Shown here piece by piece: positions 7,055 to 59,719 of a stretch of 64,000 nucleotides of DNA (its first letter is position 1; each line of letters begins with the position of its first letter). Under the pieces are notes generated by a model that had not been told where the DNA came from, made no database searches, and saw only the letters and a list, made by a program, of their open reading frames with translations. The translations under genes were made by a program, and so were the position numbers. The stretch is from positions 744,001-808,000 of the forward strand of contig NW_026570252.1 in the NCBI RefSeq assembly GCF_019649055.1, given 5' to 3'. The stretch is from Paramacrobiotus metropolitanus (lineage: Eukaryota > Tardigrada > Eutardigrada > Parachela > Macrobiotidae).

Positions 7055-9913
7055 TTAGCGTTTCAAGCAGTCTTGAACTAGCGTCCTCAACGGTACGGGA
7101 AACGGAGGCACCGCCTCGTCGACATTTTGATATCTCTGGTGCACTAAGGAGAACAATGGGGTCGCTTCGTTCAGCCTGCGGTAGACAGCAGCTCGTTCCG
7201 TCGGATCGCGGCACCGATGGCCGATCATATACGTCAGGGCATCCGCGTAAAACGTGTGCAGATGACTGAGTAGTGATTTATCAGAAGCGGTGGTCGCCCC
7301 TAAGAAAAACCCGCCACCCGACAATCAAAATCATTGTACGCTTTTGCTGAATTACGCTGAAATACACTGTACATATTTGTAATAACGAATTGCCGAATAA
7401 AATTGTCATTGTTATACAAATTTCAGGAGATACATACGAGGATCAAAAACCGCCATGGCCAGGAGCAGATAGGATTCCGTCAGCGTCAGCCCGATTCCTT
7501 TAAATACAGCGGTGAATTTGTAGCTGAAGCGGACGAATTCGGGATCCAAACCCATAGCCTCCATCCAGTAATCGCCGGCGTGAATTTGTTCGGGACCCGG
7601 CAATGGGTAATAATACTGCCCTTTATGAAAGAACCGCATGTGATGCAGCTGCGAAAAGTAACACCATAATTATGAAGAATAAACATATAATTATCATATA
7701 CAAGCAGTTTGATAACAGGACAGAACAGCTCGTACCAAAGCGGTAATAAACGTTCTCTCCGTCAGTAAAATTTCGCGATCAGCCGAGCTGACGTTCTCGA
7801 AACCAGGTAGCATGGCGAGAAACTGCGCCAGACGGAGTTTGCCATCTTCCAGTTTCTCATGCAGGCGCAGTAGTGCTCGCTGCGGCAGTGTCTGTGGTTG
7901 ATACTGCATGGAAAATTATTAAAAATGATTATTGCAAGATATGTCGGTAATAATTCTGCACGGAGTGCAGTGAAATGTTAAAATGCGTGAAAATAAAATT
8001 ACTACTGATAGATCGTACCGGTATCTGCTGAGCTTCAAGGGCGGACGTCATGAACGCGGTATACACAGCAATCTGGTCTCCGTATGCAATCTCGTACGCC
8101 GCACACACCGCGCCACCGGCTTTCTGCAGCATCACATCGCGAGAATTGCTCATGTTTAAAAATTCCGCGCAATAAAAACTGGACGGTAGAACGGGACGAA
8201 AGGTTGCCGCGACACTCAAGAAGCCCTGAAGATCTGCAAAGAATACGCGTATTAATTGTCAGCCGAAGCCCTGCAGCATGTAAAAGCAGCGCGGACTCCG
8301 ACCGGTTGGAGGGACAGTTTTGCGGAAACCGGGCGGAAAAGTCGCCGGTGTCGGCTGAAAATCCTCGTTGAAATGCCCACGCAGTAGAACCTGCATTTCT
8401 GCTCGGTTCGGCTGGGTTTCCATCGTGTTGGAGCGTGACGCACGATCAGCGGATGGTGGGTCTTCCATGGTGGCTATAATAATTGTTAGTTAAAGCCAAA
8501 TTAATGATCTCGGTGTGCTCGTATTTTCTCGTACGGACTTTCGAAGTATCTACAGGGTTATCGCGCCAAGTGTGGACAGTTGCGTAAAATAAATTAAGAA
8601 ATATTCCTGTAAATCGTTTTGGTGCATGTTTTGCTTTTTCTAGTGTAACTTTTTCTTGCAAATTCAGTGATACCAAAATTGGTATTTGTTGACGTGTCCG
8701 GAAGTAGTCAGGTGGTGTTTAAGGTTAGGGGGTAGCGGTCAATTTTTTAATGGTTATGACGACCCCTCTCAGAAATTCAGTAATGAATGTTTTTGCGTTA
8801 GTTTTCAGTGAACTATCAAGTGCTTTAAAAGGTCGTTGTTACCGGCTAGCAAAACATTCTAGCACGATCACTGCTCGTCGTGAGTTCAAAACAAGATGTA
8901 CCTCCCATAGACTCGTATGTTAAAACCTACATTTCGAAGAATGTTGTTGCCTGGATCCCTGGTTGTGTTGGACGAGATGTTAGTGGTTTAACGGAAGTTC
9001 GAAAGAAACCATTAGAACACCATGGTATTACTTGATGGTTCTCAATCGTCCAACATTTTTAAAATATTGCTGATTGAACGTGAATATTTCTCGTTAAGCA
9101 GCGCAATTTTTCGGAAAATAATGAAAACTGTCCACACTTAGCCCGATAACCCTGTATTTGTATACTTGCAGTAAGTGAATAACGCGGTCGTAGTTAATGG
9201 TATACTTGCACTTAATTTTATTTCCCACTAATTAATTTCTGTCGTACTCGTAATGATGTACGAGTAGGACCGTTCTTAATGTGAGTTACTTGACCATCGC
9301 AACTGATTCTGCTGTTTGCCAGCGACATTTGGGCAGCGAACCGGTCGCTGTGGACGCTTCCTCGTCCTCCATATTATACAAGACTGCAGTACGTACATCT
9401 CTCAGTTTCATTCCCTTTTTATGAATATAACCGGAGCGCAGTTTTTACACGGTAGTCACAATTTTTAAAATCAGTTAACTTATTTTGATATTATTTGCGT
9501 TGTAAAAAGCAGTGAGTAAACACTGGCCCGCGCTGCGATAAATAATTTCTGCACTCGCTTTTGTCTGGTGGTGACTGCAGTGCAGTGCGGGCTCGCGTGG
9601 CGGCGATCGAGTGTTCCGTCACTCATTTTTTTACAAGGCAAATAACTTCGAATTCTGAAATTCTCATGTACTCTGTAAAAGATACGCTCTGTTTAATTAA
9701 CTGGGTACAGAAACCGGAAGGTAATCGGTTTGTGGAAGTTGTGAGTCAAGCTGTCCAGTTGAACGATTCAGTTTCCATATGGCTCGGCTAAGCGAGTGTG
9801 TAATAGTTTCTTAATTTTCTGCCGAATAAGATACTATCGAACCACTGAATACTGTCCACTGAATTACTCCGCTTGGATCGTTTCCGTGCGCCATGCCCGT
9901 CTGACTCCTCCAT
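7055..9913 (-). CDS. nuclear-receptor LBD-only protein, unit 1 (intact)
   Basis: Six coding exons on the minus strand: 9853-9913, 8303-8473, 8019-8233, 7736-7903, 7438-7648 and 7055-7299. They join in frame to 356 residues, with intron phases 1,1,0,0,1 and GT-AG borders. Exon 1 gives a basic start (RKRSKRS) that could be a nuclear localisation signal. Exon 4 carries the helix 3-5 signature of nuclear receptors near residues 177-196 (FLAMLPGFENVSSADREILL, compare the family pattern FAKxxPGFxxLxxxDQxxLL). Exon 5 has the helix 7-9 segment GLTLTESYLLLAMAVFDPR. Exon 6 holds helices 10-12 and ends in LVQDCLKR, like an AF-2 core with Asp in place of Glu. No C4 zinc finger is present in any exon or nearby, so DNA binding is not expected. 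The role is inferred to be ligand sensing or co-regulation by dimerisation, as in NR0 receptors. Ligand and partner are unknown. Confidence 0.8.
8553..9154. mobile_element. Tc1/mariner-like non-autonomous element in intron 1 of unit 1
   Basis: Inverted termini start CAGGGTTATCGCGCCAAGTG on the left; the right end, reverse-complemented, reads CAGGGTTATCGGGCTAAGTG. They match over about 30 bp and are flanked by TA on both sides (8551-8552 and 9155-9156). The corresponding place in unit 3 (about 26862-26880) lacks the insert, an empty-site confirmation. The interior is 0.5 kb with no intact transposase. Confidence 0.85.
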
Positions 9914-10225
9914 CGAAATAATATAATTGCATTTAGCTTTCTAAAAACTCAATCCCCGAATATTGTAAACGCATCCTGCAGGAAATGGCCCGATACATAA
10001 AACATGGTAGACAATTCTTGTGAATAAAGCTGCAAAATGTGTGTGGAACTGCGCAGGAGGAGTTTCCACAGATTACACAGGAATAATATACCGATAAAAG
10101 ATGTTGACGACATCCGCGCTCGAACGTTGAGACACGAAATCTTGAAGAAATAATTTCTTATCGTTAGGTAATGCGTGCGATGTACTCTGTATATAACAGT
10201 ATGTACTGTGTGAGTGAATACAAGA

Positions 10226-15210: not shown

Positions 15211-15223
15211 CAACGGCCTTTAA

Positions 15224-15902
15224 GGGATTTGGCCCGGTACATAGCACAGAAATCGTGTACGTTGACGGGAATATGCGCTTTCGCGCACTTTCAAACACGT
15301 TTTTGGCTTGCTTTTTGATATTGTGTAGCCAAATGATTGCTGTACATAGGCGTGAAATCCGTTTTCGCGCGCAACATCCGGTTGCGGAGTTATGAGGGTA
15401 ACAAAATTCCAAAAAGTTTAAATGCATTCAGGTGTACGAAAAGTCTCATTATGGACCGATCCCTTTCAAATTTTGCGCGTAAATGCACATAACCATGAAG
15501 ATTGTTTTGACACGGATCCACTGTTCCAGCATGTTTTTCAAATTTTAAAATGAATTTCAAATATTTTAAAATTTATTTTAAAATTCGAAAAAAATCGTGG
15601 AAGTCTGGATCCGTGTCAAAACGATCTTCATGGTTATGTACATTTACGCGCAAAATTTGAAAAGAATCGGTCTATAATGTGACTTTTGGTACACCTGAAT
15701 GCATTTAAACTTTTTGGAATTTTGATACCCTCATAACTTCGCAACCGGATGTTGGGCGCGCAAACGGTTTTCTCGCCTGTGTATACAATTCTTCTGGCTA
15801 CAAAATACCATAAAGCAATGCAAAAAAGTGTTTGGGAGTGCGCAACAGCGAAAGTTCCCCTGGATGTACACGAACTTGGTGCTATGTACCGGGCCAAATC
15901 CC
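15224..15902. mobile_element. TTAA-flanked MITE, complete copy
   Basis: A 679-bp inverted repeat with arms of about 330 bp that meet at an AT-rich centre (TTTAAAAT-rich, about 15545-15595). Ends are GGGATTTGGCCCGGTACATA and its complement. TTAA stands on both sides (15220-15223 and 15903-15906), the target duplication typical of piggyBac-type elements. It encodes nothing and is the reference copy for the family in this window. Confidence 0.85.
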
Positions 15903-16712
15903 TTAAGATCGGATGCCCTTATGCTCAAGCTCCAAAGCGTGAACATGCGTTCCACAGGCATCGTGGAGTGAATCAGCTCCCGGTATGTTACAGCTAATAA
16001 CTTTAGTGAATTTAGTGATAAATTTATCATCGGGCTTTCATAATTTCGTTTCCCGTTTAAAATATTTTAAAAAAAAATCATTATAAAATTTTTGAAATTT
16101 CTGCAAACCTGGTAACCTGGGTGTGATTCGCATTAGTGAGATGCGTTCCTTAAAATGCGGGGAAATTATAATTCCGGTATTCATTAACACAACCAATAAA
16201 CTGCAGAAAAAGGCAGTTAACACTCCTACTGCAGACGGTAATGCACTCGTATAACAGTATAGCTAACAATAGTTCCGCCGTCAGTTCCAGGATGCAGACA
16301 TATTAAGCTGCTGAGAATTCTGCTCTACAACTTGCATTCCCGTCTAGCCTGGCTCAGATCACCGCAGCCCGGGGGCTTGTGGATAAACCGCGGAAGACGT
16401 GCCCGGTTGTCTTGACCTTTCTGCTGAACAGGCGAAAGTGCTGTAGGTGACATCTGTAACTGCTGCGGATTTCCTTTTAGCGTTCTTTGAATTGCGTGCC
16501 AAATGTGCCAGGAACGAAAACTTTATACACGGAACATAATATTTAATCGACAGAAAATAAAGACCGCGCAATTCGGTTCTACAGGAACTTACCTACAATA
16601 CCTCTAAAAAAGCGAAAAACTACGATACCTACATAAATACATATGTCGAAGTTATAAAACACATTATATGACAAACAATAAAGCCCAGCTGTGCGTATAC
16701 AAGTTAGAGAAA

Positions 16713-18833
16713 CTAGTGTTTCAAGCAGTCTTGAAGAAGCATCTTCAACGGTACGAGAAACGGAGGTGGCGCCCGGTCGACGTTTAGAAACTAATCAAGA
16801 GAAATCTGGTACGCCATGGAGAACATTTGGGACGTTTCGTTCAGCTTGCGGTAGACAGCGGCGCGTTCCGCCGGATCGCACCGACGATAGCCGATCATGT
16901 ACGTCAGTGCGTCCGCGTAGAACGTGTGCCGGTGGCTGAGTAGCGCTTTATCTGAAGCGGTGGTTGTTCCTGAATAAAATCCCGGCAACGGAATAACCAA
17001 AATCATTGCACGCTTTTGCTGAGCCCCAATGGCGTACTCGTAATGTCAAATGCCGAACAAAATTACAATCTTATTATTTTTTTATAAATTTACACGATAC
17101 ATTCGAGTATCAAAAACCGCCCTTGTAAAAGAACCTCCCTCATGTGGTGCAGCAACCTTTCCTCTCATTCAACGACTAGCTCATCGACGACGTAACTACC
17201 GTGCTCCTCCTATCCCTCTACGGTTTTATTTAAATTTTAGAAATAAAAAAATCACTCCGAAGAAGAAAAGCGAGTAGGGTGACATGTTCCGACAGAGTGA
17301 TAGAAATATCTGAGTGGCTGCATCCACCTTTCTGCCGGAGCAGTGTTCACATGCATTGATCTTACAATGAGCCCGAATGCACTCAATGGCGTCATTGCCA
17401 GATCAATCGACGCCGACGGGTTGGTTCGGCAGAAAGGTGGATGGCCTTTAGAAAAGGTGGATGTGTTCCGGTAGAAAGGTGGACGGCCGATCCACCAATC
17501 TGCCGACCTTCGGCAGATTGGTGGATGCAATTTCACTGAACATTCACCATCCACCGGTCCACCTTTCTGCCGGCTACAAGCGCTTGCGCTGACGGCATCG
17601 AGGTACAGGTTTGCGAGAACCGGACGGAGAAGTAGCCGTTGTCGGCAGAAAATCATCGTTAAAATGTCCACGCAGTAAAACCTGCACTTCTGTTCGGTCC
17701 GGCTGGGTTTCCAGTGTGTTGGAACTCAATGCACGGTCAGCTCATGATGAGTCTTCTACGTTGACTGCAAACATTTTTAAATAAGGGATCCCGGATTGAT
17801 TTTAATTAGTGTCCACAGCGCAGGCATTTTTGTTTTATGGATGAGCTATCGACAATAAACGAGAGAGGGATCCCGGTCTTGGTCTTCTTGTACCGTTGTT
17901 CGAGGTCATTACTTGTATGGTAAACGAAAAAGGCGGTCGTTGGGAAGGCCATCATAAAGGTACGCCTCACTGAATTTTAATTTCCCCAAACCGACTTCTG
18001 TCGTATAGGTATAAGAGTAGGTAACGTTCTGAATGTAACTAGTACCTGTGGGAGTACGTTCCTATAAAGAGTGCACTTAACCTTTAATAAGTATCATGTC
18101 ACAAGTACAACTAGTACCTTGACAAATCGCAACTGAATCAGCTGGCAGTATTTGCCAGCAACATCTGGACAGCGGACCGTTCGCTATGGACACTTCTGCG
18201 TTCTCCCTGTTGTTATGCAAGACTGCAGTACATCTCCCAGTTTCCTTTTCTTTTTTCATCGATATAAGCAGAGCGTAGTTTTTACATGGTACTTACAATT
18301 TGAAAATTCAGTTAAACCGTTTCGAAGTTATTTGGGCTGGGAAAAAAAGCCGTCCGTAAACACTGCCCCGCGCTGCGATACATAAGTTTTGCACCCGCAT
18401 AAAGATATGTCTGGTGGTGATTGCACTTATAAGGGTGCAGCGCAGTGGCTCGCGTGGCGGTGATCGAGTGTTCCGTCATTCATTTTTTTCTAGGCAAATA
18501 ACTTAAAACTTTAAAATTCTCAAGTACTCTGTAAAACGCTCGCTCTGTTTAAATAACTGGGTACAGAAGCCGGAAGGTAATCGGTTTGAATCTCTCACTC
18601 AGATACAAGTGAGAGATTCCTTAATGAGATTTAGAAATTATGACTCAAGCTGTCCAGTTGAATGATTCACTTGCCGTATGTCTGAGTTAAGCGAGCATGT
18701 AATAGTTGCTTAATTTTTCTCTCGGATAATAGTAGAAGCCCGAGCCCACGCAGATAATGTATTATCGAACCTCTGTTCTCTGAATTACTCCTCTTGGTCG
18801 TTTCCCTGCGCCATGCCCGTCCGACTCTTCCAT
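16713..18833 (-). pseudogene. nuclear-receptor LBD-only gene, unit 2 (decayed)
   Basis: Remnants of exon 1 (18771-18833), exon 2 (17594-17764) and exon 6 (16713-16969) lie in the right order. Exon 1 has lost one base after the codons for GKR (63 instead of 64 nt), which shifts the frame. Exon 2 has an in-frame TGA just before ADRALSSN. Exon 6 has TAG at the Trp codon of the ISLGW motif. Exons 3 and 4 are absent, and only the edges of exon 5 remain (about 17097-17150). In their place is a repeat of TCCACCTTTCTGCCG units. This copy cannot make an LBD. Confidence 0.88.
17320..17575. repeat. fold-back repeat of TCCACCTTTCTGCCG units replacing exons 3-5
   Basis: The unit TCCACCTTTCTGCCG occurs in both orientations: at 17321 and 17559 forward, and at 17420, 17450 and 17475 reversed. 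The centre is a hairpin with arms GATCCACCAATCTGCCGA at about 17490-17526. It occupies the place where exons 3-5 of unit 2 should be. Confidence 0.75.
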
Positions 18834-20557: not shown

Positions 20558-21600
20558 TCACTGTTGGTATGCGTACGATGCCATAATTGCTGCAAATTCG
20601 TGTCTGCGCTCGTTATCCAGAGTAATGTACTTCTGATAACAACTGCTGCGCCAATTACCTTGTGCTTTCACAACTTCTGCCGACGCTCCAATTGATGCTG
20701 CCAGAGTCGCCCCTCCACGGCGAAATGAGTGCGTCGAGATACGCGATGCGTCAAAACCTGCTCTGCGTACCACCTTTTTGAGGTAGTTGTTAAACTGCTT
20801 GGCCGTAAAGCTTTTGAGGACGTTATTACTGCGGAAGGAGAGAAGGTGATCACTTTCCTTAGCACGACTTTGTCAAGCATGCTTTTGATGGCTTCCATCG
20901 GACACAGTTCCTTTGCGTGTGCGATTTCCGGTATGATGACTTCCACGAACGCATTCTTATAGCGATTGGATTTTAGCGCGGGTACGGTGATCTTATACCC
21001 CGAAGAGGTCCGACTCAAATGTTTTACTAACACATGCCGATTGCTGCTACTGCTGGAGCAAAATAAATTTGAACTCCTAAAAAGCGAGAAAAATGCTAGT
21101 AAACACGCTGCCCAAAACGTTCTTCGCGCTGCTTCAGGTATAAAGCGCAAGTGCCTTCGAATTGCGACCAGTGTTTCCGGACTAATTCCCTTACGTCTGT
21201 GAGGCAGTTCCTCACACTGCTTCTGCGCTCCAGCAAGGGCTTCTTTTATTGTAAAATGCGACAGATCCGGTGCTACCGTGTCATGGAAATGATGAAACGA
21301 CGCCAAACTTGCAACGTAGTTTATTATCGTTGAGTACTGCAGTGAGCTGCGAGACAATTCCGTAATGTACAAACAAATTGTATGCGGCGAAGCCGGGACT
21401 GCTTGAAGCTTATATGCACTGCACAACTGCTTAAACCTGCTCCACTGGGAACGACGTGTTCGCTGCGATGAAACTGCTGTGCCAGCTTTCCGCAAGTCTT
21501 TCAGCTGTTTCTCCAGTTCCGCTTCTGGGATACGAGGTGTTCGTTGTTTCCGGTAGCCTTTCCCCGGGAAAACTGCGAAAAACGGAAAGAAATCTGTCAA
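20558..21600 (-). CDS. tyrosine recombinase of the Ngaro/PAT element (frameshifted)
   Basis: It would cut and rejoin circular element DNA into the genome. The first frame (21600 down to about 20870) contains the SAM-like N-terminal core and the first catalytic Arg in SLFRSSNL (about residue 175). The C-terminal part lies in another frame (about 20865-20558) and holds HSFR (His-x-x-Arg), the GNW motif and the nucleophile Tyr in SCYQKYI. The two halves join only through a frameshift near 20860-20875, after MEAIKSMLDK. A single-base error or indel explains this, so this copy is probably defective unless the frame change is programmed. It overlaps the RT frame by 170 bp. Confidence 0.88.
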
Positions 21601-23533
21601 AATGGCTGCTATCCGTTGTTATTCTGCTAAGGGAATCAGCTGCCACGTTTGTGATTCCTGGACAATGCACTGCCGTAACCGAAAGGTCGTACTTCAGGGA
21701 CACATTAAATAAAAGTTTAAGCCACTGCAACGCCCCACTGTTCTTGGTCGTACCACGACAAATGAAAGCAACGGTTGAGCTATTGTCGGATGTGACTACC
21801 ACGCGTCTGCCAGTCAAAATCGGTGCCCATATTAATATGGGCAAGCACGCTGCGATAAGCTCAAGAAAGTTTATGTTTTCTTGTAGTGTGCTGTCAACTG
21901 CCGGAGTTGCAATCCAGTTTCCGCTTAGTGCTTTTAGTCCGCCAGGCAACTGGTAACCTGCTTTCCAACAGCCTGCCATCCAGTGGTTATCCATGGTTGC
22001 TCCAAAACCGCTAAACGAAGCGTCCGTGTGTATAACTGCTCGGGGGCGGTTGGCCACTGCAACTGGCCACTGCACTCTGCCGTTTACTGCTGCTGCGAAG
22101 CTCGCCCACCAATTTAATGCACACTGCATTGGGCGGGTGACCCGCGCAAGATGCGACGGTGCCTTTAGGCTCATCATTATGTCGATGAAGTACCGCGTGA
22201 ATGTAGCCGCACCTGCGATTGCCCGAGATGCAAAGGACATGTGTCCAATCAACGCCTGCAGTTCTCGTTTTGAGACCTTCTTCCGTGCTGCGAAATGCAA
22301 TGCTGCTTCTGCTAATTTACTCAATTTTTCCTGCGGCAAAATAATGCACTGCAACTGCGAGTCTAATGTCAGACCCAAAAACTGGATGCGCTGCGTGGGG
22401 CTGATGACTTTTTCCCATTTTACTGCAAAACCCAAGCACACTAACAACCGCAAAAGTTGTTTCTGTGCTTCTGCGCACTGCTCATACGTTTTCGCTATTA
22501 AAATAAAATCGTCCAAGTAACAGATGCAGTGAAACCCCAGTTTCCTCATCTTTCTTGCTACTGCGCTAGATATTCGTTGAAAAATTGCGGGAGCGTTAGC
22601 CAGTCCAAAACATAAAAAATTATCAACAAAGTATTTTTCTGGTTCGTGTCCAAAGCCCCATTTGAAACCTTGTAACTGCCTGTGCGGTGGATATATCGGC
22701 ACGTGCCGGTATGCCGACTTTATGTCCACGACTGCGAAAAAACAATTACTGCTGCTAAGGTCGATAACATCTTGAACCGTATCAAATTTAAAAGATTCCG
22801 GTTCAATGTACGAATTGAGAGAATTTTCAAAAGGTCTCGAACAATCAGTAATGGGCCTGGGAGTGAGTGACCCGGATTTTGCTACTGCCCCAATGGCCTG
22901 TATGCGATGCGATTTTGTATCCTGCTCAGAAATTCTGCCTGCTAATAATCCTTCTGCGAAAAGCCGGTCAAGCAATGGCTTTGTCTCATTATTAAGTGCG
23001 CTGCTATAATTTTTTCCCTCTGCGGGTAAAACTGCATCCATATCCGGAACAAGTTGAAAACCGTAATAAATGCCGTTTATTAAAAAATGCAAATCCGTGT
23101 CATCCGAAAGTTCAGCTATCCAGAACTGCACATTACGAGTTAACGAACAGCGTTGCAGTAAGTCTTCGGCAGGGAGGTAATTAACACCATTAACATTGAA
23201 ACCTTTTTCATGAGAAATACATTTAACCGAAATAAAATCAAAACATTTGTTATCATCTGCCAAATGAATGCTGCTGTGCTCTGCTATGCTATTACAAGGT
23301 TGCCGGTTAGTAACACGTGCACTGCCAATGCTGTCGCTAACGTCCGTTGCTTCCGGCCTGGTTCGAGTTGCAGTTGACGGCGCGGTGCTTGCCTCCACAG
23401 TATCCGCACACGTGCCGGTATCGGCAGCTGTCGCCTCTTGCGCAAGTCGTGCGGTTGTAATCCAGGCAACAATTGGGAGTCTGGAATGCCGGGTGCGTAG
23501 CGAATCCGGTGTGCTGCTGTTGTCCGCGGCCAC
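21431..23533 (-). CDS. reverse transcriptase-RNase H of the Ngaro/PAT element
   Basis: An open frame of 700 codons. The RT palm is visible: motif A VVDIKSAYRHVPI with Asp near residue 280, LCFGLANAPAIFQR, and the catalytic YLDD near residues 349-352. RNase H follows, with HTDASFSGFG (about 512), FLELIAA (Glu about 568), VTSDNSSTV (Asp about 593) and NVAADSLSR (Asp about 643). No aspartic protease or integrase is seen, as expected for this order. The frame overlaps gag by about 200 bp and the recombinase by 170 bp in other frames. With no stops it may be a recent insertion. The product would copy element RNA in the cytoplasm. Confidence 0.94.
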   Translation of the reverse strand: MAADNSSTPDSLRTRHSRLPIVAWITTARLAQEATAADTGTCADTVEASTAPSTATRTRPEATDVSDSIGSARVTNRQPCNSIAEHSSIHLADDNKCFDFISVKCISHEKGFNVNGVNYLPAEDLLQRCSLTRNVQFWIAELSDDTDLHFLINGIYYGFQLVPDMDAVLPAEGKNYSSALNNETKPLLDRLFAEGLLAGRISEQDTKSHRIQAIGAVAKSGSLTPRPITDCSRPFENSLNSYIEPESFKFDTVQDVIDLSSSNCFFAVVDIKSAYRHVPIYPPHRQLQGFKWGFGHEPEKYFVDNFLCFGLANAPAIFQRISSAVARKMRKLGFHCICYLDDFILIAKTYEQCAEAQKQLLRLLVCLGFAVKWEKVISPTQRIQFLGLTLDSQLQCIILPQEKLSKLAEAALHFAARKKVSKRELQALIGHMSFASRAIAGAATFTRYFIDIMMSLKAPSHLARVTRPMQCALNWWASFAAAVNGRVQWPVAVANRPRAVIHTDASFSGFGATMDNHWMAGCWKAGYQLPGGLKALSGNWIATPAVDSTLQENINFLELIAACLPILIWAPILTGRRVVVTSDNSSTVAFICRGTTKNSGALQWLKLLFNVSLKYDLSVTAVHCPGITNVAADSLSRITTDSSHFDRFLSVFRSFPGERLPETTNTSYPRSGTGETAERLAESWHSSFIAANTSFPVEQV

Positions 23534-23804
23534 GAAAAGGCCGGTTCTGCTGCGTGTTGCCGATGCGTCGAAAGGCGTCCGTACGCCGAGTGTCTGCGTT
23601 CAGGTTGTTGTCTGCAATAGCAAGCTGCTCGCTTTTGTCAGTAAGTGCAAATTTTTCATCTTTTGCAAAGCTGCGCATTTCGTTGTCGAAGAGAACGATT
23701 GCTTCGTCCTCATACCGACACCGTCTGCCTGCCAGAAACTGCTGATACTGCAAGAATTCGCGTAGTGCGTCTGCGTATTTGCCCTGCACATCTTTAGCCA
23801 ACAT
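23337..23804 (-). CDS. Gag-like zinc-finger protein of the Ngaro/PAT element
   Basis: A 155-codon frame begins just inside repeat A1. Its C-terminal third has a CCCH finger (C-x7-C-x5-C-x3-H, ending CRYRH) followed at once by a knuckle of form C-x2-C-x3-H-x4-C (CGYCGGKHRAVNC). Such fingers bind the element RNA. It is short for a Gag, so the start could lie within A1 or the 5' part may be lost. It precedes and overlaps the RT frame. Confidence 0.75.
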   Translation of the reverse strand: MLAKDVQGKYADALREFLQYQQFLAGRRCRYEDEAIVLFDNEMRSFAKDEKFALTDKSEQLAIADNNLNADTRRTDAFRRIGNTQQNRPFRGRGQQQHTGFATHPAFQTPNCCLDYNRTTCARGDSCRYRHVCGYCGGKHRAVNCNSNQAGSNGR

Positions 23805-24801
23805 CTTTAGCCAACTTTAGAAAACGAATTCTACGTTTAGCTGTGAGGCACTGGAAGTTGTGATCCGGCTGGCAGCTTTTTATAAGCGGGCAGTGGATCC
23901 GGTTTTGGTCGCTCTGCAACCGTCAGTGGCCTCCCGGCCAATGCCGACAGAGATGGGTCAGTTACGTTCGGCCAATAATAAACAAATTCTGCGTACGTAC
24001 AGAATTTTACTCATTAATTTTTTCCAGACTCGCCGATCTTTTTACTAGGAATGCCGTACTGTGTACATCATCCGCAAAATGACGAATGATAAAATGTACA
24101 GCAACAAAAAACAAATAACGGAATTGATTTCCATTTTCATGTTTTTCCATTTCCATGTACATAATTGGCAATCCTGGAATCAAATTTGGTATGACATTGT
24201 CATAGCACATGCAGACATGTATCTGCGCTAGTGTTCTCACTGTAAAATGTGTTTTGTCACCGTTGCGCCATTCTACCTTGAACTGTAGAGAAAGGCAATT
24301 CGCTCTCCTAATAAAGGTAAGATCTAACGAAATAACAACAGTGCCGCCGTGAGTTCTAAGACTGCAGACATAATAAAGTGTTGAGAAGGTTCTTTACATC
24401 TTACGTTTCCCGTCTAACCTGGATCAGATCCCCGCAGACCGGAGGCATTGGGGGTGGTTAAACTGCGCCCGGTTATCTTGACCTTTCTGCTGAATACGCA
24501 AGCGAAACTGCTGTAAGTGTGATTTTTGTGACTGCCGCTGCAAATTTGTCTTTACCGTTGATAAAACTGCGCGGTAAATGTGCCAGGAACGAAAACTTCT
24601 ATACTCGTAACATCAGAGTGGCAGATAAAATTAATGTATACCGCGCAATTTTCGTTTACAGGAAATCACCTACGATATCTCGAAAAAAAAATGCAAAAAA
24701 CAACGATGACTACGAAAAATACATTTCTTAAGTATCCGTCGTAAAACACTCTACATCGCACACAATAAATTCGTGCCAAGCCTGTCTGTGCGTATACAAG
24801 T

Positions 24802-41206: not shown

Positions 41207-42569
41207 ATGCATTTGTATGAGAGACGGAGTCGTTCGGTGTATGCGTGGAACGCGGTGGACGTGCTGATCGAAGGCCAGTTGAGACACGGGCATGTCGTTA
41301 ACACAGCAGCGAACGGTCTTACTGTCGACCTCTTCTGCTCTACACAGGAGGCGGTGTTCGTGGAGTTTGGGAAGATTTTCGATTCGTCGGATAAATCGCT
41401 GCAGAAACGCACATGCCTTGGTTAGTACTTAAATTCAGCGCAATAGAAAGATTATGGCTTCGACTGGATAGTGAACACGCTACATACGAGTATTAAGTGC
41501 ATTACAAAATAAAGAGATACATCAGTTCTTTTTCTTAATCTCCAGTATTTCGTAATCGTCTAATTGATCCGTTACAGGATGGAAGGACCAGTTTCTAAGC
41601 AAACCGCGCAACGCGAACGTGCAAGTGCTGCTGCGCGCCCATCCCAACCGCCCATGGACGTGGTACCCAGCCACTGTGCTGATCACCGACTTTCTCAGTT
41701 TCACGCTGAACGATTACGCTTTCGTAGAGGCGCAGCTGGACGGCTACACCACCCGTGAACTGCTTCCACCGGAGCAGATTCGCTGTGTTCCGACACGGGA
41801 GCAGATGGCAGAAGCCGTCGTTAAGCGGGGCGACTTCATCCTGCAGACATGGCGACATCCAGAGCATTTGGAGTTGATACCGTCGGATGTCATACACGAC
41901 CTAGAGCGGCGCTTCAGTGTCGTTGTCTCTAGCGTTTCCGAGGCGGAGATGCTATACCTTGAGCATCGCGAGCGCCACCGCCCTATGGAGGCGATGCTGA
42001 GTATGACGGTCAACCGCCCTGCGATGCTGAGCAAAATTGCTAACGACGGACAACAACACCCCGCTAAACGGACCGTGCCAATCGAACTGGTGGCGGAATT
42101 CCGAGGTATTCGGTTACCAACTGAGCTTCTCACTGAGGTTTTCTGGCATCTGAACACCATCGAGCGTCAGCGCTGTCGCCGCGTCTGCCCATTATGGGGC
42201 GCTTTGCTGACGTTCGCCACATTGTGCCAAGATGTCTGGTTGCCGCAGAGCAAAGCGTTCTTTCTTCCGTATGGGCTGCAATCGGTCTTGTGGACACCTA
42301 AATACGCGCTCTTCGCCGGTTTTCTGAAATGCGTCACCTCGATGACGAAAAGCGTTTGCCTGGAACAGTTTGTGGATGCGCAGCATGCGCGCCATGTTCC
42401 GCAGTGTATGTGCATTCTGCGCGGACCTTTGCCGCATCCGGCGAGTAGAGTGAAGAAGCTGATCTACGTCAATTGCCATTTGGCTCAGCGTCGCAATGCT
42501 GACAACAATCGCGATATAATGATGTCTTTAAGCAGCGTCATATTCGCTGCCAATGACTCAAATATCTAA
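41207..42569 (+). CDS. F-box protein with N-terminal Tudor/Agenet-like repeats
   Basis: Two exons, 41207-41420 and 41578-42569, join in frame (phase 1) to 401 residues. The first ATG in frame gives MHLYERRSRSVYAWNAVDVL. Residues about 10-70 (AVDVLIEGQLRHGHVVNTA, then VDLFCSTQEAVFVEFGKIF) and about 85-140 (NVQVLLRAHPNRPWTWYPAT) look like two small beta-barrel repeats of Tudor or Agenet type; this is inference. Residues about 235-280 contain the F-box: RLPTELLTEVFWHLNTIERQ followed by CRRVCPLW. F-box proteins bind Skp1 and bring substrates to an SCF ubiquitin ligase. The C-terminus shows no clear LRR or WD repeats. It lies between units 4 and 5 on the opposite strand. Confidence 0.8.
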
Positions 42570-42953: not shown

Positions 42954-44897
42954 TTATTGTTTCAAGCAGTCCTGAAGCAGCGTCCTCAGCGGTGCAGGAA
43001 ACGGTGGCACCATCCGGTCGACAGTTTGATACCGCGCAAGAGCAACCTGGTGCACCGTGGGGAACATTTTGGCCGCTTCGTTCAGTTTGTGGTAGACAGC
43101 GGCGCGTTCCTCCGGATTCCGGCAGCGATAGCCGATCGTGTACGTCAGCGCATCCGTATAAAACGCGTGCAGTTGTTCGAGTGCCGGTTTATCCGACGCG
43201 GTAGTTGAGCCTACCAAACCGATGGCCACAAATTAATTACACCTTCCGTACGCTTGCCCTGAGTCCTGACCGCGTTGGAATACGAGTAACATATTACTTT
43301 ACTTGAGCGCTCGTGAATAGAAATTAAGGTAATGCAGAGCAAAAAAACCAGAACAGTTTTTCCGGGTTGTCTATTTAAAAAAGTATTCTTTAATATTTCC
43401 TGACTGGACTATCGCGGTTAGTAACCTAGTGCGAGTAAAAGCTATGTTCGTAGATTACATACGCGGATAAAAAAATACTGCGGCCAGAAGCAGATAGGAT
43501 TCCGTCAGCGTCAGCCCGATTCCGTTGAATACAGCAGTGAATTTGTAGCAGAACCGAAGGAATTCAGGATCCAAACCCATCATCTCCATCCAGTAGTTGT
43601 TGGCGTGAATGTGTTCCGGCCCCGGTAATGTGTAGTAATTTTGTCCTTTGTAAAAGTACCGCATGTGGTGCAACTGCGCAAAGTAGCCCGACAATTTAGA
43701 GACTAAACAGATATATAGAGTATAATTATCATTATCAGATATATAGAGTATACTGTAATTATCATATATAGAGTATAATTATCAGATATATAGAGTATAA
43801 TTATCATTATAGAGCAAGTACAGTATTACGATTAAGCGTACAGAACAGCTCGTACCAAAGCACTGGAAAAGGTTTTTTCTGCTAGTAAAATACCGGGATC
43901 ACCCAGACTAACGATCTCGAACCCAGGCAGCATGGCGACGAACTGCGCCAAACGAAGTTTGTCATCTTGACCTTTCTCCTGCATTCGCAGCAGTGCTCGC
44001 TGCGGCGAGGTCTGCGGTTGAACAAGCTAAATCTGTAAACAAGCTAAATCGCTTATTATATGCCATGCTCATAATATTCTGTACCTAATAGGTGCAGCCG
44101 CAAAGCGAGATGCTATAACGCGCGGGAACAAATAACTACATTATAAACGCTCGTACCGGGATCTGCTGAGCTTTAAGGACGGACATCATGAACGCGGAGA
44201 ACACGGCAATCTGGTCTCCGTAAGCGATTTCGTACGCCGCACACACGGCGCCACCGGCTTTTGCAGCATTACATCGCGCGAATTGCTGACATGTGCGTAC
44301 TCGCTGCCAAACATATTTGCCGGCAAGATTGGGCGAAATGTCCTTTTGTTTGTTATATCGGAGATTGTGCGTGCAGTCGCCAGATGGTAGATCAATAAGG
44401 GCAACTGATAGAACCGACAGATTATTTCGCTCACGTTGACAGTGTTTTGCAGTCTCCATTGCGGATCCCCCGCCCCTGCAGCAAGCTTCGACATCAGCCG
44501 TATCGGAAGCGCAGCTAAACCAAGCAGAAATACTGAGCCTGCTGTGTGGACGCATTAACGAGGATTTCCTACCGACCCGGGCGACGTTTCCACCCGGTTT
44601 CCGCAAAGTAGCCCGTCCATGCGGTCAGTTTTTGGGGCGTTGTTCTGCATACTGTCGTTGACATTTTCTGCAGATCTTGAAGGCTTCATCAGTGTTGCAC
44701 CGAAACGTTAAGATAAATCACAAGAATAAAACATAAAGGGAAAACGTATGAAAAATATACGACAACAGAAGCAAACATAGAACATAAGAAAACGGAAGAA
44801 AACATCAGAACCGAAACCTGAGCATATGCATACCCGTATCCACAGGAGGACTCCGGCTGATTCCTTTTATGTCCCCTTCCGCTTCCGAATTTTCCAT
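42954..44897 (-). pseudogene. nuclear-receptor LBD-only gene, unit 5 (broken by micro-inversion)
   Basis: Exon 1 (44834-44897), exon 4 (about 43856-44026), exon 5 (43463-43673) and exon 6 (42954-43210) are on the minus strand. Exon 2 (44453-44623), intron 2 and the first 30 bases of exon 3 (from 44674) lie on the plus strand. The rest of exon 3 (44157 to about 44341) is again on minus. The inverted segment is about 44342-44708. The minus piece of exon 3 has also lost one base near 44262 (GGCTTTTGCAG for GGCTTTCTGCAG), shifting the frame. The acceptor of exon 4 has been altered. Exons 5 and 6 remain open, ending LLQDCLKQ. No complete LBD can be made. Confidence 0.87.
43683..43815. repeat. AGATATATAGAGTATAATTATC minisatellite in intron 4 of unit 5
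   Basis: Four imperfect copies of an approximately 31-bp unit with core GATATATAGAGTATAATTATC, truncated or extended by ATC blocks. Confidence 0.88.
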
Positions 44898-46059
44898 AAC
44901 GATAGCATATATTTCAACACCTAATCAATAATTACAATCTCTGCACATTTGAAACCGTCATTTCGTCCGGGGAAGTGCTTTTATTTTGGCATGAAATTTG
45001 TACCGATTTTCCCGATTAAGCACGCACTGCCTGTCTGCATACCCAATATGCGGAACGTAACGGGTTTTCTATATACTCTGTCTGTGCAAAAAATGTACCG
45101 GTGCAAAATTAAAATTCTCCTTAAAGCGCAAATTCTTAAACAAATCACCGTGTTGAGCTGTCTTGGATTTAGCTATTACCGGGCAAATTTTTGTCTCTGC
45201 TAAGTTGAGAATGCAGTACAAAGCTCCGTTGGATGCGTTTTTCAGCTCCCCTCAAGCCTCAAATGCTGAAGGTATGACAGTTGAATGTTCGGCTTGGCGG
45301 AGAAGAAATCAATAAAATGTGAGATTATCTGCGCCGGATATCTAATTCTACCGGTAATACCACAGTGCTACAGCTCTGCCAGGTTTTGGTGCAACGCTGC
45401 CAGGTTTCCATTACACACTGCATGCTGCAGCAGTATACCTAATTAAAGTAATAATTCTAGCCTCCCACCTCTGACCGATATCGATTTTATCGAGGGCCGC
45501 CGATTTGCTTGACGAAAATTACGGTACTCGACACAGCCAATTATGAAACACCGGCGTATTTGGTACGACTGTTAACAGTATCAGCTGGTGCAATATGGTG
45601 GACTGTGCCTTGGGGAGAGAAAAATGCTCTGTGTTAACTGTAGTCACGCTACACCACAGCGCGTGAAATGTTTCTAATTTTCTCAAGAGACATTCCACGT
45701 ATTCCTATATCTGTATCAAAGTTACATTAATTTTAGCTTCTTAACATCTCGATCCGGGTGATCACTGATTAATAATTATGTACTGTACTATTACAGTGCA
45801 TCTGTACAGCAGTACAGGAATATTTCGCAATATTATCAATTTGAAATTGTGGGCGTTGCACTTGTCCTGCAAAATCAACGCACAATTGCCGAAGAATTCT
45901 GTTATATTCACGGAAGAAAAGATAGTGTAGGTGTTTTGTAACGGCACTTTATGTTGTCTTCTTTCGTACTGGTTTAATCCAGCCTTGTTAAGCGTCACCC
46001 AACCAGATTGACTGTTGCCTATACAGTTGCCGCGCTTTAAAAGTGCTTTTATATTTGGT

Positions 46060-46739: not shown

Positions 46740-47263
46740 CACCAGCAACAGCAACGCTTTCCGAGCTGGACATGGTGCAAACGTTTTAGAGAAACTACTC
46801 CAGCTTAAAAGGACTTATTACAGTAAGTAAACGTTTGATAAGACTTTTTCATATTGATCGTGGGGCTATTTTCTGAATAATTCTATTTAAATCTGGTTGG
46901 AGTCCATGGAGACAGCAATCGATTTCTGCATTTCTGAAGTACGTACAGTAATACATTTTAATATTTTGTATCTCGAATAGATGTAAAAGTATGGTAATGC
47001 ACCGAGTCAAACGTAGCGTGGATTGGTAGTGTACCGAGTGAATGAGAAATTTTCCTGACTGTTGTTGCGCATACAGAATTCCATAATAAACAAACCATAA
47101 TTCCATAATAAACACACCTTACCCCTCTGGCATAGGAAAGAAAAGAAAACACTAGAATAAAACATAAGAAGAAAACGTATGAGGTCAGACAACAGGAGCA
47201 AACATAAGAAAAGATAAAAAACGCAAGAAACATAAGGAAATAAACCTGAGCGTATATACACAC

Positions 47264-47327
47264 CCATATCCCCTGAAGGATTCCGATTGATTCCTTCTTC
47301 TTCATCGTCCGCTTCCGAATTCTCCAT
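47264..47327 (-). pseudogene. orphan exon 1 of LBD unit 6
   Basis: The sequence encodes MENSEADDEEEGINRNPSGD and ends at a phase-1 donor (GTGTGT), exactly as exon 1 of the other units (64 nt). Intron 1 sequence with AACATAAGAAGAAAACG blocks continues to about 47120. No exon 2-6 sequence follows. The basic KRxKRS patch is also missing, being replaced by an acidic run. Confidence 0.8.
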
Positions 47328-48081
47328 AACGATAGTATATATTGCAGTACAGTACTTTATCAATAATTAAAACCTCTGTGTTTTCGAAACTGTGAACTCA
47401 TCTGCGGAAGTTGTTTGATTCTGGCATGAAGCTTTTGCCAGTTTCCCTGGTTCTGCGCACTGCCTGCCTGGATACTCGATATGAAGAACGCAATAAGATT
47501 TCTTTAAAATACGCAGAAGATTTACCGGTGAAAAATTAGAAAGCGCTGATCCTTTTACAAATCACTATGTCTTGGATAAAACTACTCGGGCAAATGTTTG
47601 TCTCTGTTAAATGATCATGCTGATTCGTGCAGCACAAAGCCCCGTTGGAGGCGTTTTTCATCTCCATCTCAATAGATTATTACCGCTCGTTAAAAAAGGC
47701 CTACGATATACGATGCGATATACGGTAGGCTCATAAACGTCACAGCGGAGTACCCTTACCGGACCATCATACGATAAGTGTGACGGTAAGTAATGATCCT
47801 ATCGTTATTCTGCTGTGGTCGTACCGTTGCCTTCTGCGAAGTAGCAACCGCCACCTGTGGCATGTACTTGGATCTCAGTTCTGCTCGATCGAATGAATTT
47901 CCAGAATTCTGATTGGTTGCTCGTATCTCTTTATGATTTTTGCTGATAACGAAACAGCACCCAGCAAGAAAAAGAGAAATTAAAAAATAAGGGTTTTTGA
48001 TCTCTTTAGGAGATTTGTGAGGTTTTTTGAAGTGTAGTGTAGTGTACTGTAAGTGTAGTCACGTTCTTTTCGTTACTGGAG

Positions 48082-52285: not shown

Positions 52286-54664
52286 TCAGCGTTTCAAGCA
52301 GTCGTGAACCAGCGTCCTCAATGCAGAAGGAAACGGCGGTGGCATCTGAGCCTCGGCTTTATTATACCATTCAAGGTAGAGTTGGTACGCAGCGGGAAAC
52401 AGTTTGGCGGCTTCATTCAGCTTCTGGTACACAGCAGCGCGTTCCGTCGCGCTCCGACAACGATAGCCGATCGTGTACGTCAGCGCCTCCGCATAAAACA
52501 TGTGCAGATTCTTCAGCAACGTTTTTTCCGACGCAGTGGTCGTGCCTAAAACACCCGGCAGCATTGCAATTCGATTTTATGCACCACATTACGCGGCGAA
52601 TCTAAGTAGGATGCGCTACCTAGGTAGCTAAAAAATTCATTTACTCACAAGTCCATGTCACCGTAAGCCACCCATCAGCAGGAGTGAGAAACCTGCATTT
52701 TTTAACTGAATTTAAAAATTTTAGAATTTTAGATTTAGAATTTTATTTTTAGATTTACTGATGGCTGAAAGGGAACTGTTCACCCCTGTCTGCACGTCTC
52801 TCAACGTAATACCTTAGGAAAGCCTATTACCACACTTTTACGTCCCGGCACGATCTCGTGATTCTACTTAATTTTTCGTGTTAGTCTACATAAATTTCTC
52901 ATTTACAGTATTTTATGTAGTTCCTAACCCAGGATTTTCTGCGGTAAATTAAAAGTGCTAAGAGGATTACAATCCAGTGCCCCTCAAACCAATTATACTG
53001 ACCTCGTTAGAATCGATACTATACGAACCTGGATCAAAGAACGCTACGGCCAACAGAAGGTAAGATTCCGTCAGCGTCAGCCCGATCTTGTTGAAGACCG
53101 CACTGAACTGATAAATGAACCGGAGGAATTCGGGATCCAACCCCATAATCTCCATCCAGTAGTTGTTGGCGTGAATCTGTTCCGGACCCGGCAATGGGTA
53201 GTAATAGTCGCCTTTGTGACAGTATTTCATATAATGCAGCTAAAGAACAGCACCAGTAAAATTAATAGACAGAAAAACAAACACCGTCAAATAGAACGTA
53301 CCAAATTAGTGATAAACCTCTTTTCCACCAGTAAAATATCGCGATCAGCGGGGCTGATGTCCTCAAAGCCAGGCAGCATGGCGACAAACTGCGCCAGACG
53401 GACTTTATCATCTTGACGTTTTTCGCGGGTACGCACCAGTACACGCTCCAGTGATGTCTGTGGCTGATGCTGTACAGTGAATAACCGCAATGAGTGAAAA
53501 ACATCAGTTTATTCAGTCCGTAGCAAGCGAACACTGTTTTCTTTAATTGAGTTATAGAAGGTTCTCACATTTATTAACTTTTACCGGGTCACTTCCCTTC
53601 AGCGTCACATTATTTTAGTCATTTAACATAAGTGTGCAAACAGCAGTCCCATTTTCGGAGAAAAGGGCCTCCGAAACACCGGAATAAAGCAATCGCTTAT
53701 TACAGGATTTACAGCTGTATTTTTTGCCTTGGCGACTGCCGAGTGCAATGATCGTACCGGAATTTGCTGGGCCTCGAGGGCGGACGTCATGAAGGCGGAG
53801 AACACGGCAATCTGATCTCCGTAGGCTATCTCGTACGCCGCACATACCGCACCACCGGCTTTCTGCAGCATCACATCGCGGGAACTGCTGACATGGGCGT
53901 ACTGATTAAAATGCGAATCCGCCGGCAACATTGGACGAAATGTCGCTGCGACACCCATGAATCCCATAAGATCTGCTGAGAATACTGATCATCAGCCCCA
54001 GCAGGGGTAGCGCGAAACGCACGTCAAGTGCCTCACCGCAGGAACGGACAGGTTTACGGAAACCAGACGGAAAGGTCGTCTGCGTCGGCTGAAAATCCTC
54101 ATTAAAATGTCCCCTCAGCAGGGTTTTCGCTTCGTTTGGATCCAGTACGGATGAGATCTGTGCTGGCTGTGCTGATGATGGGTCCACCGCGGAAACTGCC
54201 AATTTTAATATTATAAACTACATAAATCAGTCAAGCGGCGAGTTCTAAAAAAACGTTACTTAATAATTTGCCAAAATTATAACAATACCGATCTGGGCGA
54301 GAGTCTGTACTTGGACGATTTACGCATTCCCGACATTTTCACAGTCTACAATCACATACCGGACAAGGGACACCAGAGACGCGTTATTTTTTGCGTTGTT
54401 CCGCCAGCCAGAAACTTTTCAAAACTTACCATCATTAATTGCGATAATTGTAGTTTTTATACAAGCTTGTATTGTACACGAAATTACGAGCAATAAAACA
54501 TTATCAAGTTGTCTAATGTGGAACGACCCGAAGAATACGGCGTCCTTGGTGTCCGGTACGCGGATCCATTGTGTGAAAATGTCTGGAATGTCGGTCATAC
54601 TTCTCTCAAGGGAATTAATCGGCTTGGATCGCTTTCTCGCGCCGTGTGCTTCCGAATCCTCCAT
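52286..54664 (-). CDS. nuclear-receptor LBD-only protein, unit 7 (intact)
   Basis: Exons 54601-54664, 54037-54195, 53758-53972, 53302-53469, 53029-53239 and 52286-52545 join in frame to 358 residues. Exon 2 is four codons shorter than in units 1-5. Exon 1 is basic (HGARKRSKP). Exon 3 contains QKAGGAVCAAYEIAYGDQ. Exon 4 has FVAMLPGFEDISPADRDILL, the helix 3-5 signature. Exon 5 has GLTLTESYLLLAVAFFDPG, and exon 6 ends LVHDCLKR. The insertion TTTASEKTLLKNLHMFY in helix 10 is distinctive. Intron 5 (483 bp) contains only AT-rich DNA. No DNA-binding domain is visible upstream. Confidence 0.8.
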
Positions 54665-56985: not shown

Positions 56986-57061
56986 TTAGCGTTTCAAGCA
57001 GTCTTGAACCAGCGTCCGTAATGCCGGAGAAAACGGAGGGAGAGCCTGGACTTCGGCTGTT

Positions 57062-59719
57062 TTATACCATTGAAGGTACAGCTGGTAGACTGTGGAACAT
57101 TTTAACCGCTTCCTCAAATTTATGGTACACAGCAGCGCGCTCCCACGGGTGCCGGCACCGATACCCGATCATGTACATCAGCGCGTCCAAATAAAACGCA
57201 TTTAGGTGCTTGAGTAACGCTTTATCCGAGGCGGTGGTCGTGTCTGGAGGAAAACCGGCAACATTATCAAAAACGCCGAAGGACAAATGTGTTTTCATAC
57301 ACTGGCGCAAGTGAACAATAGTGCCCTGCAACGGAGTCGAAAACTTCGTCCAGTCCGATCCGAACTGATAAATTTTTCTCCGAACCCAGTCCGACTCCGA
57401 ATTTTCAAAATCATACTCCGACCACTCCGATCCGTAAATGTTTTTTACAAATCCGAATCCAGTCCGATCCGCTCCGAAAATTTTTGTCATATTTATTTTT
57501 TATTTCATTCCAGAAAAATCTATAATACCTATACTATCCGCTGCAACAATTAAAGATAGCGCACGCCAGGTTATCATCGAAATTCTCAATTTTCAAAATC
57601 TTCGGAACGTTTATTTGATTTTTATGCAATCTCCGTTTAAATTTTGCGTCGTCTTAGCCATAGATTGCTCATACCTGAGCGTTTTTCGAGTTGCGAATTC
57701 CGAAAATTTTGATCTTTTTGCCATCGCAAAAACCACAGTTTCTGGCTGGTGCTTTCACGTGTTAGTGGCATCTCTTTTAGTTCTCAACAAAAGAACTCAT
57801 AAAAGTTGTAATTCGGATTTTTTTTTATTGAACAAGCTTCGCTTCTAACAAAGGGCACGGAGTAAGTAACTGAAGTTAACGTAAGTAATAGAAGTAGCTA
57901 CGTTTAGTGCTTTACCGAATCACACAGAAGCCTCGCGCGGAGCGCGAAGCTGGCGATGCTTTTTGTCCAAAAAATTATGGAAATTCTATAAAAATCAGTT
58001 GAAAATATAATTTTATTTCGGATAATTCGGAGTCATAATTACATCCGAATCCGATCCATTCAGGCAAGCCTAAACTCCGAAACCACTCCGATCCGAATTT
58101 TTTTAAAACAAATCCGTCCAATCCGCTCCGAAAATCGGAGTGGATTCGGAGCGGTTCGGATTTACCAGTCCGTTGCAGGGCTCTAGCACTGAACAATTCT
58201 CTAAACCCCGCAACAAATTGCTCGGAGTAAATCAATCTATACCTGGATCAAAAAACGCTGCGGCCAACAGTAGATAGGATTCCGTTAGCGTCAACCCGAT
58301 TCTGTTGAACATAGAACTGAATTTGTAACAGAACCGAATGTATTCGGGATCCAATCCCATAATCTCCATCCAGTAGTTGCTGGCGTGAATCTGCTCGGGG
58401 CCCGGTAAGGGGTAATAATAATCTCCTTTGTGACAATATTTTATATAGTTGAGCTACGAACAGCAAACAGTAAATAGGATAGGCAAACACAATTAATGTG
58501 AACATTATAGAAACCGTCCGTACCAAATTAGTAACAAACGATTTCTCCGCCAGCAAAATATTGCGATCTGCCGGGCTGATGTCCTCAAAACCAGGCAGCA
58601 TGGCGACAAACTGTGCCAGGCGGGTTTTGTCATTTTGACGTTTCTTGTGCATTCCCACCAGAAAGCGCTTTAGCGACGTCTGCGGTTGATACTGTAAAAT
58701 AGAAGCCATAAATGATTTTGTGCCGAACGTCGACCGGCAGCGTTTGCTACGAGTAAGCACCTTCAAGCGTCACGGTAAAAACAAACACAAAGTTAGTAAA
58801 AAAATAATCTTTTGAGTAAAAATAAGTACGAAATTTTTAGGGAGGGAAAATGCGAATAAATCAGTTCCAAAGAAGGAAAACTCCCTGGTCAAAAAGGAGA
58901 TTTTTATATTCAAAAAGAAGAAGAAAATATTCGCGCCTAATACCCTTTGACTACGTTCAGAATTCCGAGCTGCCAAATTTTGCTGAAATGTTTTTTTTAA
59001 ACGCTAAGCTAAGTAAAGAGTAAACCCTCTCGAATCTAGAGAAAAATGGTAATTTTCAAAATTTTCTAACTTGCCGACTGTCATATGCAGAAATCTTACC
59101 GGTATTTGCTGAGCTGCGAGGGCGGACGCCATGAACGCGGAATACACGGCAATCTGGTCTCCGTAGGCGATCTCGTACGCCGCACACACCGCGCCACCGG
59201 CTTTCTGCAGCATCACATCGCGGGAATCGCTCACATCGGCGTACATACTGAAGTACGAATTCGGCGGCACAACCGGGCGAAATGTCGCGGTGACACTCAA
59301 GAAGCCCTCAAGATCTGTTAAAAATTTTGTTTGTCAACTCCAAACATGGCAGCATGAAGCATATGCCATGGATGCTGACCACAAGGAGGGACAACTTTAC
59401 GGAAACCGAGCGGGAACGTTGCCCGGGTCGGCTGGAAATCTTCGTTAAAATGTCCACGCAGCAGAGACTGCACTTTTAGGTGTTTTGCCTGTCGGGATGA
59501 GATGGATGGTTCCTGTGCTGATGGCGGATCATCAGCTGCAAAAAATTGCCGATTGGACGCACGAGAATTAATCAACTAGTAGGCTGCGTGGATTCCACTA
59601 AATCAGCTGCCAGATATAAACAGATTGCACGATTGCAGTTTGAGAACTGTAGTCTTACTGTACACGGAATGTCTCCGCTTTGATGGCCGCTCTTCTCCGT
59701 TTTCTTCCGTATCATCCAT
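57062..59719 (-). CDS. nuclear-receptor LBD-only protein, unit 8 (C-terminally truncated)
   Basis: Exons 59659-59719, 59380-59535, 59100-59314, 58524-58691, 58243-58453 and 57062-57243 join in frame to 330 residues. Exon 1 contains GEERPSKRRHS. Exon 4 has FVAMLPGFEDISPADRNILL, the helix 3-5 signature. In exon 6 the frame shifts after KMFHS (about 57090) and stops at 57062, so helix 11 and the AF-2 segment are not translated. The remaining codons, ending LVQDCLKR at 56986, are still present and open in another frame. A net shift of one base (or loss of two) explains it. The product could be inert or act as a receptor lacking AF-2. Intron 5 holds a MITE. Confidence 0.75.
57322..58184. mobile_element. 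MITE with TCCGATCCGAA subterminal arrays in intron 5 of unit 8
   Basis: The left end GCCCTGCAACGGAGTCG mirrors the right end GTCCGTTGCAGGGC. Next to each end is a cluster of degenerate TCCGATCCGAA units (57345-57480, and 58030-58165 in the opposite sense). The interior, including a 136-codon frame at 57438-57848, shows no recognised transposase. Clustered subterminal repeats usually serve as transposase binding sites. Confidence 0.8.

Follow-up and report, generated by a model that had tools for sequence, protein, structure and literature searches.

What kind of protein is encoded by a tardigrade gene array that repeats one six-exon plan along a single strand, and whose products RefSeq names "uncharacterized"? 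The stretch of DNA analysed here, hereafter the window, comprises 64,000 nucleotides (bases 744001-808000) of C32, a 1.28-Mb contig in the 169.8-Mb genome of the eutardigrade Paramacrobiotus metropolitanus, and positions without further specification refer to it. Our preferred reading, to which we assign a probability of roughly 60%, is that nuclear receptors resembling those of subfamily NR1 lost their DNA-binding domain (DBD), multiplied in tandem and may now act as DNA-free partners or cofactor competitors.

Layout of the array

Seven recognisable head-to-tail units (U1-U7), all copies of one six-exon gene, occupy the minus strand between 7055 (the end of U7) and 59719 (the start of U1), limits that coincide with those given in a first-pass annotation of the same DNA. 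Four units are intact (U2, U4, U5 and U7), one is frameshifted near its end (U1) and two are dead (U3 and U6), and relics are present in addition. The annotation had counted eight head-to-tail units on one strand, four intact, one truncated and three dead; the strand, the orientation, the four intact copies and the truncated one (U1) stand, while the recognisable units number seven, the rest being relics, and the dead ones two. Its description of exon sizes and phases as nearly constant is borne out by the five modelled units, in which the exons measure 61 or 64, 156, 159 or 171, 215, 168, 211 and 245-299 nt, the intron phases are 1,1,0,0,1 and the borders are GT-AG.

Read in the direction of the array, U1 (56986-59719, minus strand; exons 59719-59659, 59535-59380, 59314-59100, 58691-58524, 58453-58243 and 57243-56986) is truncated because its last exon is out of frame, and up to its stop the sequence is the same as that of RefSeq P0010 (330 aa). 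U2 (52286-54664, minus strand; exons 54664-54601, 54195-54037, 53972-53758, 53469-53302, 53239-53029 and 52545-52286) is intact and encodes 358 aa; RefSeq splices its end differently, with a short alternative last exon at 52661-52699, and the resulting P0011 is a 283-aa protein without the last ligand-binding exon. U3 (42954-44897, minus strand) is dead, with exon 3 out of frame and exon 2 inverted (44452-44622, plus strand); the RefSeq model P0017 (224 aa) covers this dead copy. The intact U4 (35405-38020, minus strand; exons 38020-37957, 37645-37475, 37412-37198, 36361-36194, 36079-35869 and 35661-35405) encodes a 361-aa protein identical in sequence to RefSeq P0001, and the intact U5 (25316-28515, minus strand; exons 28515-28452, 26796-26626, 26545-26331, 26213-26046, 25979-25769 and 25614-25316) encodes 375 aa. 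U6 (16719-18833, minus strand) is dead: exon 1 is out of frame (18833-18763), exon 2 (17795-17601) and the last exon (17000-16719) each carry a stop, and exons 3-4 and most of exon 5 are missing. U7 (7055-9913, minus strand; exons 9913-9853, 8473-8303, 8233-8019, 7903-7736, 7648-7438 and 7299-7055) is intact with 356 aa, its first exon being less certain: a family-like start was chosen here, and RefSeq P0002 has another ATG and another donor. The RefSeq models of the array genes are themselves possibly prediction-only; SRA runs from hydrated and desiccated animals are named in PMC11191345.

A relic on the minus strand at 47143-47490, with 75% DNA identity to the exon-1/intron-1 region of U3 (44710-45057), is possibly what remains of an eighth unit. 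An exon-4-like relic lies at 16292-16438 (minus strand, E 6.5e-5), and a further exon-4-like piece at about 24333-24535 is 76% identical to it. Other open frames are found among and beside the units. Between U6 and U5, a 722-aa frame (21434-23599, minus strand) contains a reverse-transcriptase domain (RVT_1, E 3e-20) and is probably a retrotransposon. A 333-aa frame on the plus strand, opposite to the array, lies between U3 and U4 (41568-42566) and matches an F-box (E 1.9e-5), and a Kelch-repeat frame (E 2.3e-20) is situated upstream of the array (61457-62194, minus strand).

Identity of the domain and the search for a zinc finger

The array proteins are almost certainly nuclear-receptor ligand-binding domains (LBDs), with insecure limits at helix 1 and helices 10-12, because of their profile matches in the Protein Data Bank (PDB), the homology of U4 to the receptors P0019 and P0018, and shared intron sites. 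A PDB search with a profile representing the four intact copies, in which U5 and U7 were entered without their first exon, gave 42 matches at E up to 10, every one an LBD, 17 of them below E 0.01 and the best being LXR-alpha at 2.5e-4. The broader A2 profile, built from 12 family sequences of which 4 come from DBD-bearing loci, matched 413 different sequences with E of 0.01 or less, the best E being 1.6e-15, and the best 60 of these 413 are again all nuclear-receptor LBDs. Both sets, that is, all 42 matches of the four-copy profile and the best 60 of 413 of A2, belong to NR1 (LXR, VDR, CAR, Rev-erb and FXR), in alignments that span about helices 3-9, helices 1 and 10-12 being placed by position only. 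Within the genome, U4 (P0001) matches P0019 at E 2e-55 with 34% identity and P0018 at E 4e-37 with 31% identity. P0019, named ROR-alpha-like in RefSeq, contains a zf-C4 domain (E 3.6e-25) and a PF00104 match that falls under the cut-off (E 0.002), and P0018, named ecdysone-induced protein 78C-like, has both domains over the cut-off. Three LBD intron sites (IP|QPQT-type, L|LHH/L|VHH and FDP/FRP) occur at the same places and in the same phases in the array and the P0019 locus. The first-pass identification of the products as nuclear-receptor ligand-binding proteins is thus upheld by the PDB profiles and by homology to zinc-finger receptors of the same genome.

The PF00104 search that had been proposed alongside that identification stays under the cut-off when run on single intact proteins. 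None of the four intact units reaches the curated 23.5 bits, which their relative P0018 does; two of the four gave no match in single-protein Pfam searches, and the others gave E 0.042 and 0.088. When the set was widened to 16 proteins, PF00104 matched five of them at E up to 1, most strongly the DBD-bearing P0018, and a genome-wide PF00104 search returned 18 matches, none on C32. With shallow alignments, hhalign gave a probability of 2% (E 0.023) for the array against the canonical LBDs of the genome, and of 21% (E 0.001) for the wider family. Rfam gave no match at the gathering score.

It is highly probable that the DBD was lost from the array genes. A genome search with PF00105 gave 63 matches, none on C32, and a DBD model seeded with ten receptor sequences of the P. 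metropolitanus genome gave a best E of 0.42 across the window and its flanks (7 kb upstream, 3 kb downstream), in agreement with the earlier statement that no C4 zinc finger was found in the window. As a control, the same model detects all five DBD-bearing loci, two of which supplied seeds and three of which did not. A zinc-finger exon overlooked near the array was rejected on both searches, and because no C4 DBD was found the array genes appear not to be canonical complete receptors but to be DBD-less by descent.

Extent of the cluster and history of the domain loss

Further copies, for which the first-pass annotation had suggested a genome search, are plentiful: P0001 gave 136 exon matches, grouped into 43 places, and the local expansion described earlier proves to lie inside a larger cluster. 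Of these places, one corresponds to the inverted U3 exon and five to DBD-bearing receptors (C14, C40, C80, C96 and C140). The other 37 are without a detected DBD, and 22 have three or more exon matches; these 37 include dead or frameshifted copies (U3, U1), places with a single match may be fragments, and a group on C87 comprises more than one gene. Array-type genes span 636 to 933 kb of C32 on both strands, the window array forming the middle of this ~300-kb cluster, and relatives occur on other contigs. Protein searches directed at other tardigrades returned P. metropolitanus in 17 of 17 and 13 of 13 matches, with about 8000 candidates sharing most words being scored, a scope that does not imply absence elsewhere; a further protein search, with 1250 candidates scored, returned P0019 only. 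For comparison, the portion of a zf-C4 survey drawn on here counts 42 C4-type zinc-finger proteins in P. metropolitanus (PMC12941274).

The history of the DBD was approached with an LBD tree of 34 rows, comprising 16 of the 19 proteins found, U2, U5, 13 loci and three canonical receptors as the root; P0011, P0013 and P0017 were left out as incomplete. In this tree, whose outgroups fill under half of the columns and in which two rows have long branches, the DBD-bearing P0018, C140 and P0019 branch first, with support of 98/62 and 99/97 below P0018. Fifteen rows, including the window genes, form a wholly DBD-less clade (100/100), and another three genes without a DBD, two from C80 and one from C69, have a DBD-bearing C80 gene as their sister (98/96). 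The DBD-less state of the relatives is scored from limited flanks (loci of 2.7-9.9 kb) and the genome PF00105 search. Parsimony gives three changes of DBD state, at least two of them forced by well-supported branches, and a single DBD-less clade is rejected (p-AU 0.0016). As the DBD-less genes are nested among DBD-bearing ones and a single clade is rejected, repeated loss of the DBD is indicated; complete NR1-like tardigrade receptors would have lost their zinc finger, after which the genes would have multiplied in tandem. The first-pass designation of the genes as NR0-type is not retained, the PDB matches listed being all NR1 and DBD-bearing tardigrade receptors being homologous over the LBD. 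Descent from NR0 is likewise unsupported by sequence affinity, with no NR0B among the PDB matches listed, and was rejected as a candidate on that ground.

Selection, possible function and known systems

Purifying selection acts on the intact copies. Taken together, the four give an omega of 0.26 (bootstrap 0.21-0.32, 120 resamples), and by region it is 0.51 in exons 1-2, 0.15 in exon 3, 0.26 in exon 4, 0.13 in exon 5 and 0.34 in exon 6; pairwise dS is 0.47-0.93, the regional and pairwise values having been obtained with five-exon models of U5 and U7. An omega of 0.26 at such dS implies that the intact copies have long been kept under constraint, and a recent burst of duplication is rejected by the same dS range. 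That the array might consist of decaying duplicates without function would fit the three broken units among the seven, but it has to accommodate four intact copies with these omega and dS values, and we consider it highly improbable. The chance also seems slight that the units form the 3' portion of ordinary receptors, with DBD exons that sit far upstream, have diverged strongly or were missed. Introns of more than 1 kb do exist upstream (1.66 kb between exons 1 and 2 of U5), and 5' coverage of several relatives is limited to near flanks. Applied to 17 relative loci without a detected DBD, the DBD model gave 7 weak rows (E 0.0099-0.88), some on the strand opposite to the gene, and the best of the seven is a finger-like stretch upstream of a DBD-less relative (L058:2940-3137, minus strand; WECCMCKSFCKRSSQQ, E 0.0099), a possible decayed DBD relic. 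Such exons are, however, difficult to reconcile with the fact that every intact unit possesses an ATG exon of its own, with the RefSeq models of U2 and U4 (and U1) starting at the same exon 1 as ours, and with no DBD being detected within 7 kb upstream of the window end or on the whole contig.

What the proteins might do is suggested by a small number of motifs. A basic motif, K[KR]x[KR], lies within the first 40 residues in 9 of 17 rows, where shuffling predicts 0.33. That set contains U2 twice (P0011 and our own model), omits P0016 and takes for U5 and U7 start variants that lack the first exon of the six-exon models. When every gene is entered a single time, in its six-exon form, the raw count remains 9 of 17, the motif being absent in 8. 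Of these 17, 13 carry a helix-12-like end (LLQDCL/LVQDCL or a near match) and 4 are without it. Helix 3 reads F(V/L)AMLPGF in the window copies, FAK in P0018 and one canonical receptor, and WAK in two other canonical receptors; the lysine absent from the array is presumably that of the coactivator 'charge clamp'. Its loss is not tied to that of the DBD, since four of the five DBD-bearing relatives are without it too. LxxLL motifs are found in the C-terminal segment of 8 of 17 members (LRTLL or LKTLL before QDCL/QECL; absent in 9) and in the N-terminal part of none of the 17, and 10 of 17 carry [VIM]xxLL[RCH]G ahead of the LBD.

We tentatively suggest the following mechanism. The LBD-only proteins would enter the nucleus, as the short basic cluster near the start of 9 of 17 hints, would bind no DNA themselves, and would pair with DBD-bearing sister receptors or compete for their cofactors, and the copies may differ in the small lipophilic ligand to which each is tuned. 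Because the helix-3 lysine is absent in the array while the helix-12-like motif is kept, altered cofactor docking would be expected, with mainly dominant-negative or modulating action. We put this mechanism, in which nuclear, DNA-free LBDs pair or compete with their DBD-bearing sisters, at slightly short of an even chance. A bolder proposal, which we regard as doubtful, is that a tardigrade lineage stripped the DBD from NR1-like receptors at least twice and built a large LBD-only set (37 hit groups) as a combinatorial layer of ligand-gated partners, whose C-terminal helix, AF-2-like and in 8 of 17 also LxxLL-like, would plug their own or a partner's cofactor groove.

The proteins could alternatively be stand-alone ligand sensors or carriers unconnected with transcription, for example lipid binders of the cytoplasm or nucleus. 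A selection pattern that is strictest in exons 3 and 5 (omega about 0.15 and 0.13) and least strict at the N terminus (0.51), together with the missing helix-3 lysine and the 8 of 17 members without a basic motif, would suit such a role, which we nevertheless judge unlikely in view of the helix-12-like end in 13 of 17 and the NLS-like basic cluster in 9. They could also resemble SHP and DAX1 in acting as repressors whose own LxxLL-type helices occupy the coactivator groove of other receptors. DAX1 carries N-terminal LxxLL-type repeats. The array proteins are DBD-less as NR0B is, and the C-terminal LxxLL and the motif before the LBD could serve as such helices; yet 9 of 17 are without the C-terminal LxxLL, the N-terminal part has it in none, and NR0B is not among the PDB matches listed, so that repression of this kind seems distinctly improbable.

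Among the closest comparisons are P0019 and P0018, whose LBDs are homologous to that of U4 (intron sites being common only with the P0019 locus) and which, unlike the array, carry a C4 zinc-finger DBD; P0018 also keeps the helix-3 lysine. The NR1 receptors LXR, VDR, CAR, FXR and Rev-erb provide the best PDB matches to the LBD but are complete, and helices 10-12 of the array align to them without significance. NR0B shares an LBD without a DBD, DAX1 and SHP being vertebrate repressors that lack the latter (PMC3038971, in the portion consulted), whereas the close homologues of the array are DBD-bearing tardigrade receptors. Analogous in an invertebrate lineage are the HNF4-like (NR2A) DBD-less receptors of ctenophores, two in Mnemiopsis and one in Pleurobrachia, for which, unlike the array, no tandem expansion is reported in the sections of PMC3038971 drawn on here; NR2A is not among the best 60 of 413 A2-profile PDB matches. 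The tardigrade C4-type zinc-finger 'Group 5' has likewise expanded partly by tandem duplication (PMC12941274, as excerpted), but cannot include DBD-less genes because it is defined by the zf-C4 domain.

DBD-less receptors as such are already known (DAX1, SHP and the ctenophore receptors), at one or two genes per animal in the parts of the literature consulted (e.g., PMC3038971). A tardigrade set that is NR1-like, arranged in tandem, under selection and repeatedly stripped of its DBD was not found in the open-licence PMC literature, covered in part by the best matches listed. The sequences suggest a large overlooked set of sensor or blocker proteins in this animal. If this holds, a multigene, selected and repeatedly evolved set would show receptors able to multiply as ligand-binding partners that do not bind DNA, and a hidden part of the tardigrade receptor repertoire would have been missed by surveys based on zf-C4 or Pfam. 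The DBD-bearing and DBD-less sisters would then form a natural series for the effect of DBD loss on receptor function.

Repetitive sequence is found within and beside the array. A fold-back element at 15220-15906 has 342-nt arms, 85% complementary and 3 nt apart, and related stretches are scattered through the array near 12.2-12.5, 27.4-28.1 and 29.7-30.3 kb. An inverted-repeat element at 36512-37051, with arms of 104-108 nt that are 83-86% complementary, sits inside intron 3 of the intact U4. Positions 1-5435 of the window are occupied by a long interrupted minisatellite with a 51-nt unit (17 codons) that is open in several frames, e.g., WTVVVAQSLVHLTGSVH, and that also shows longer periods of 102-222 nt.
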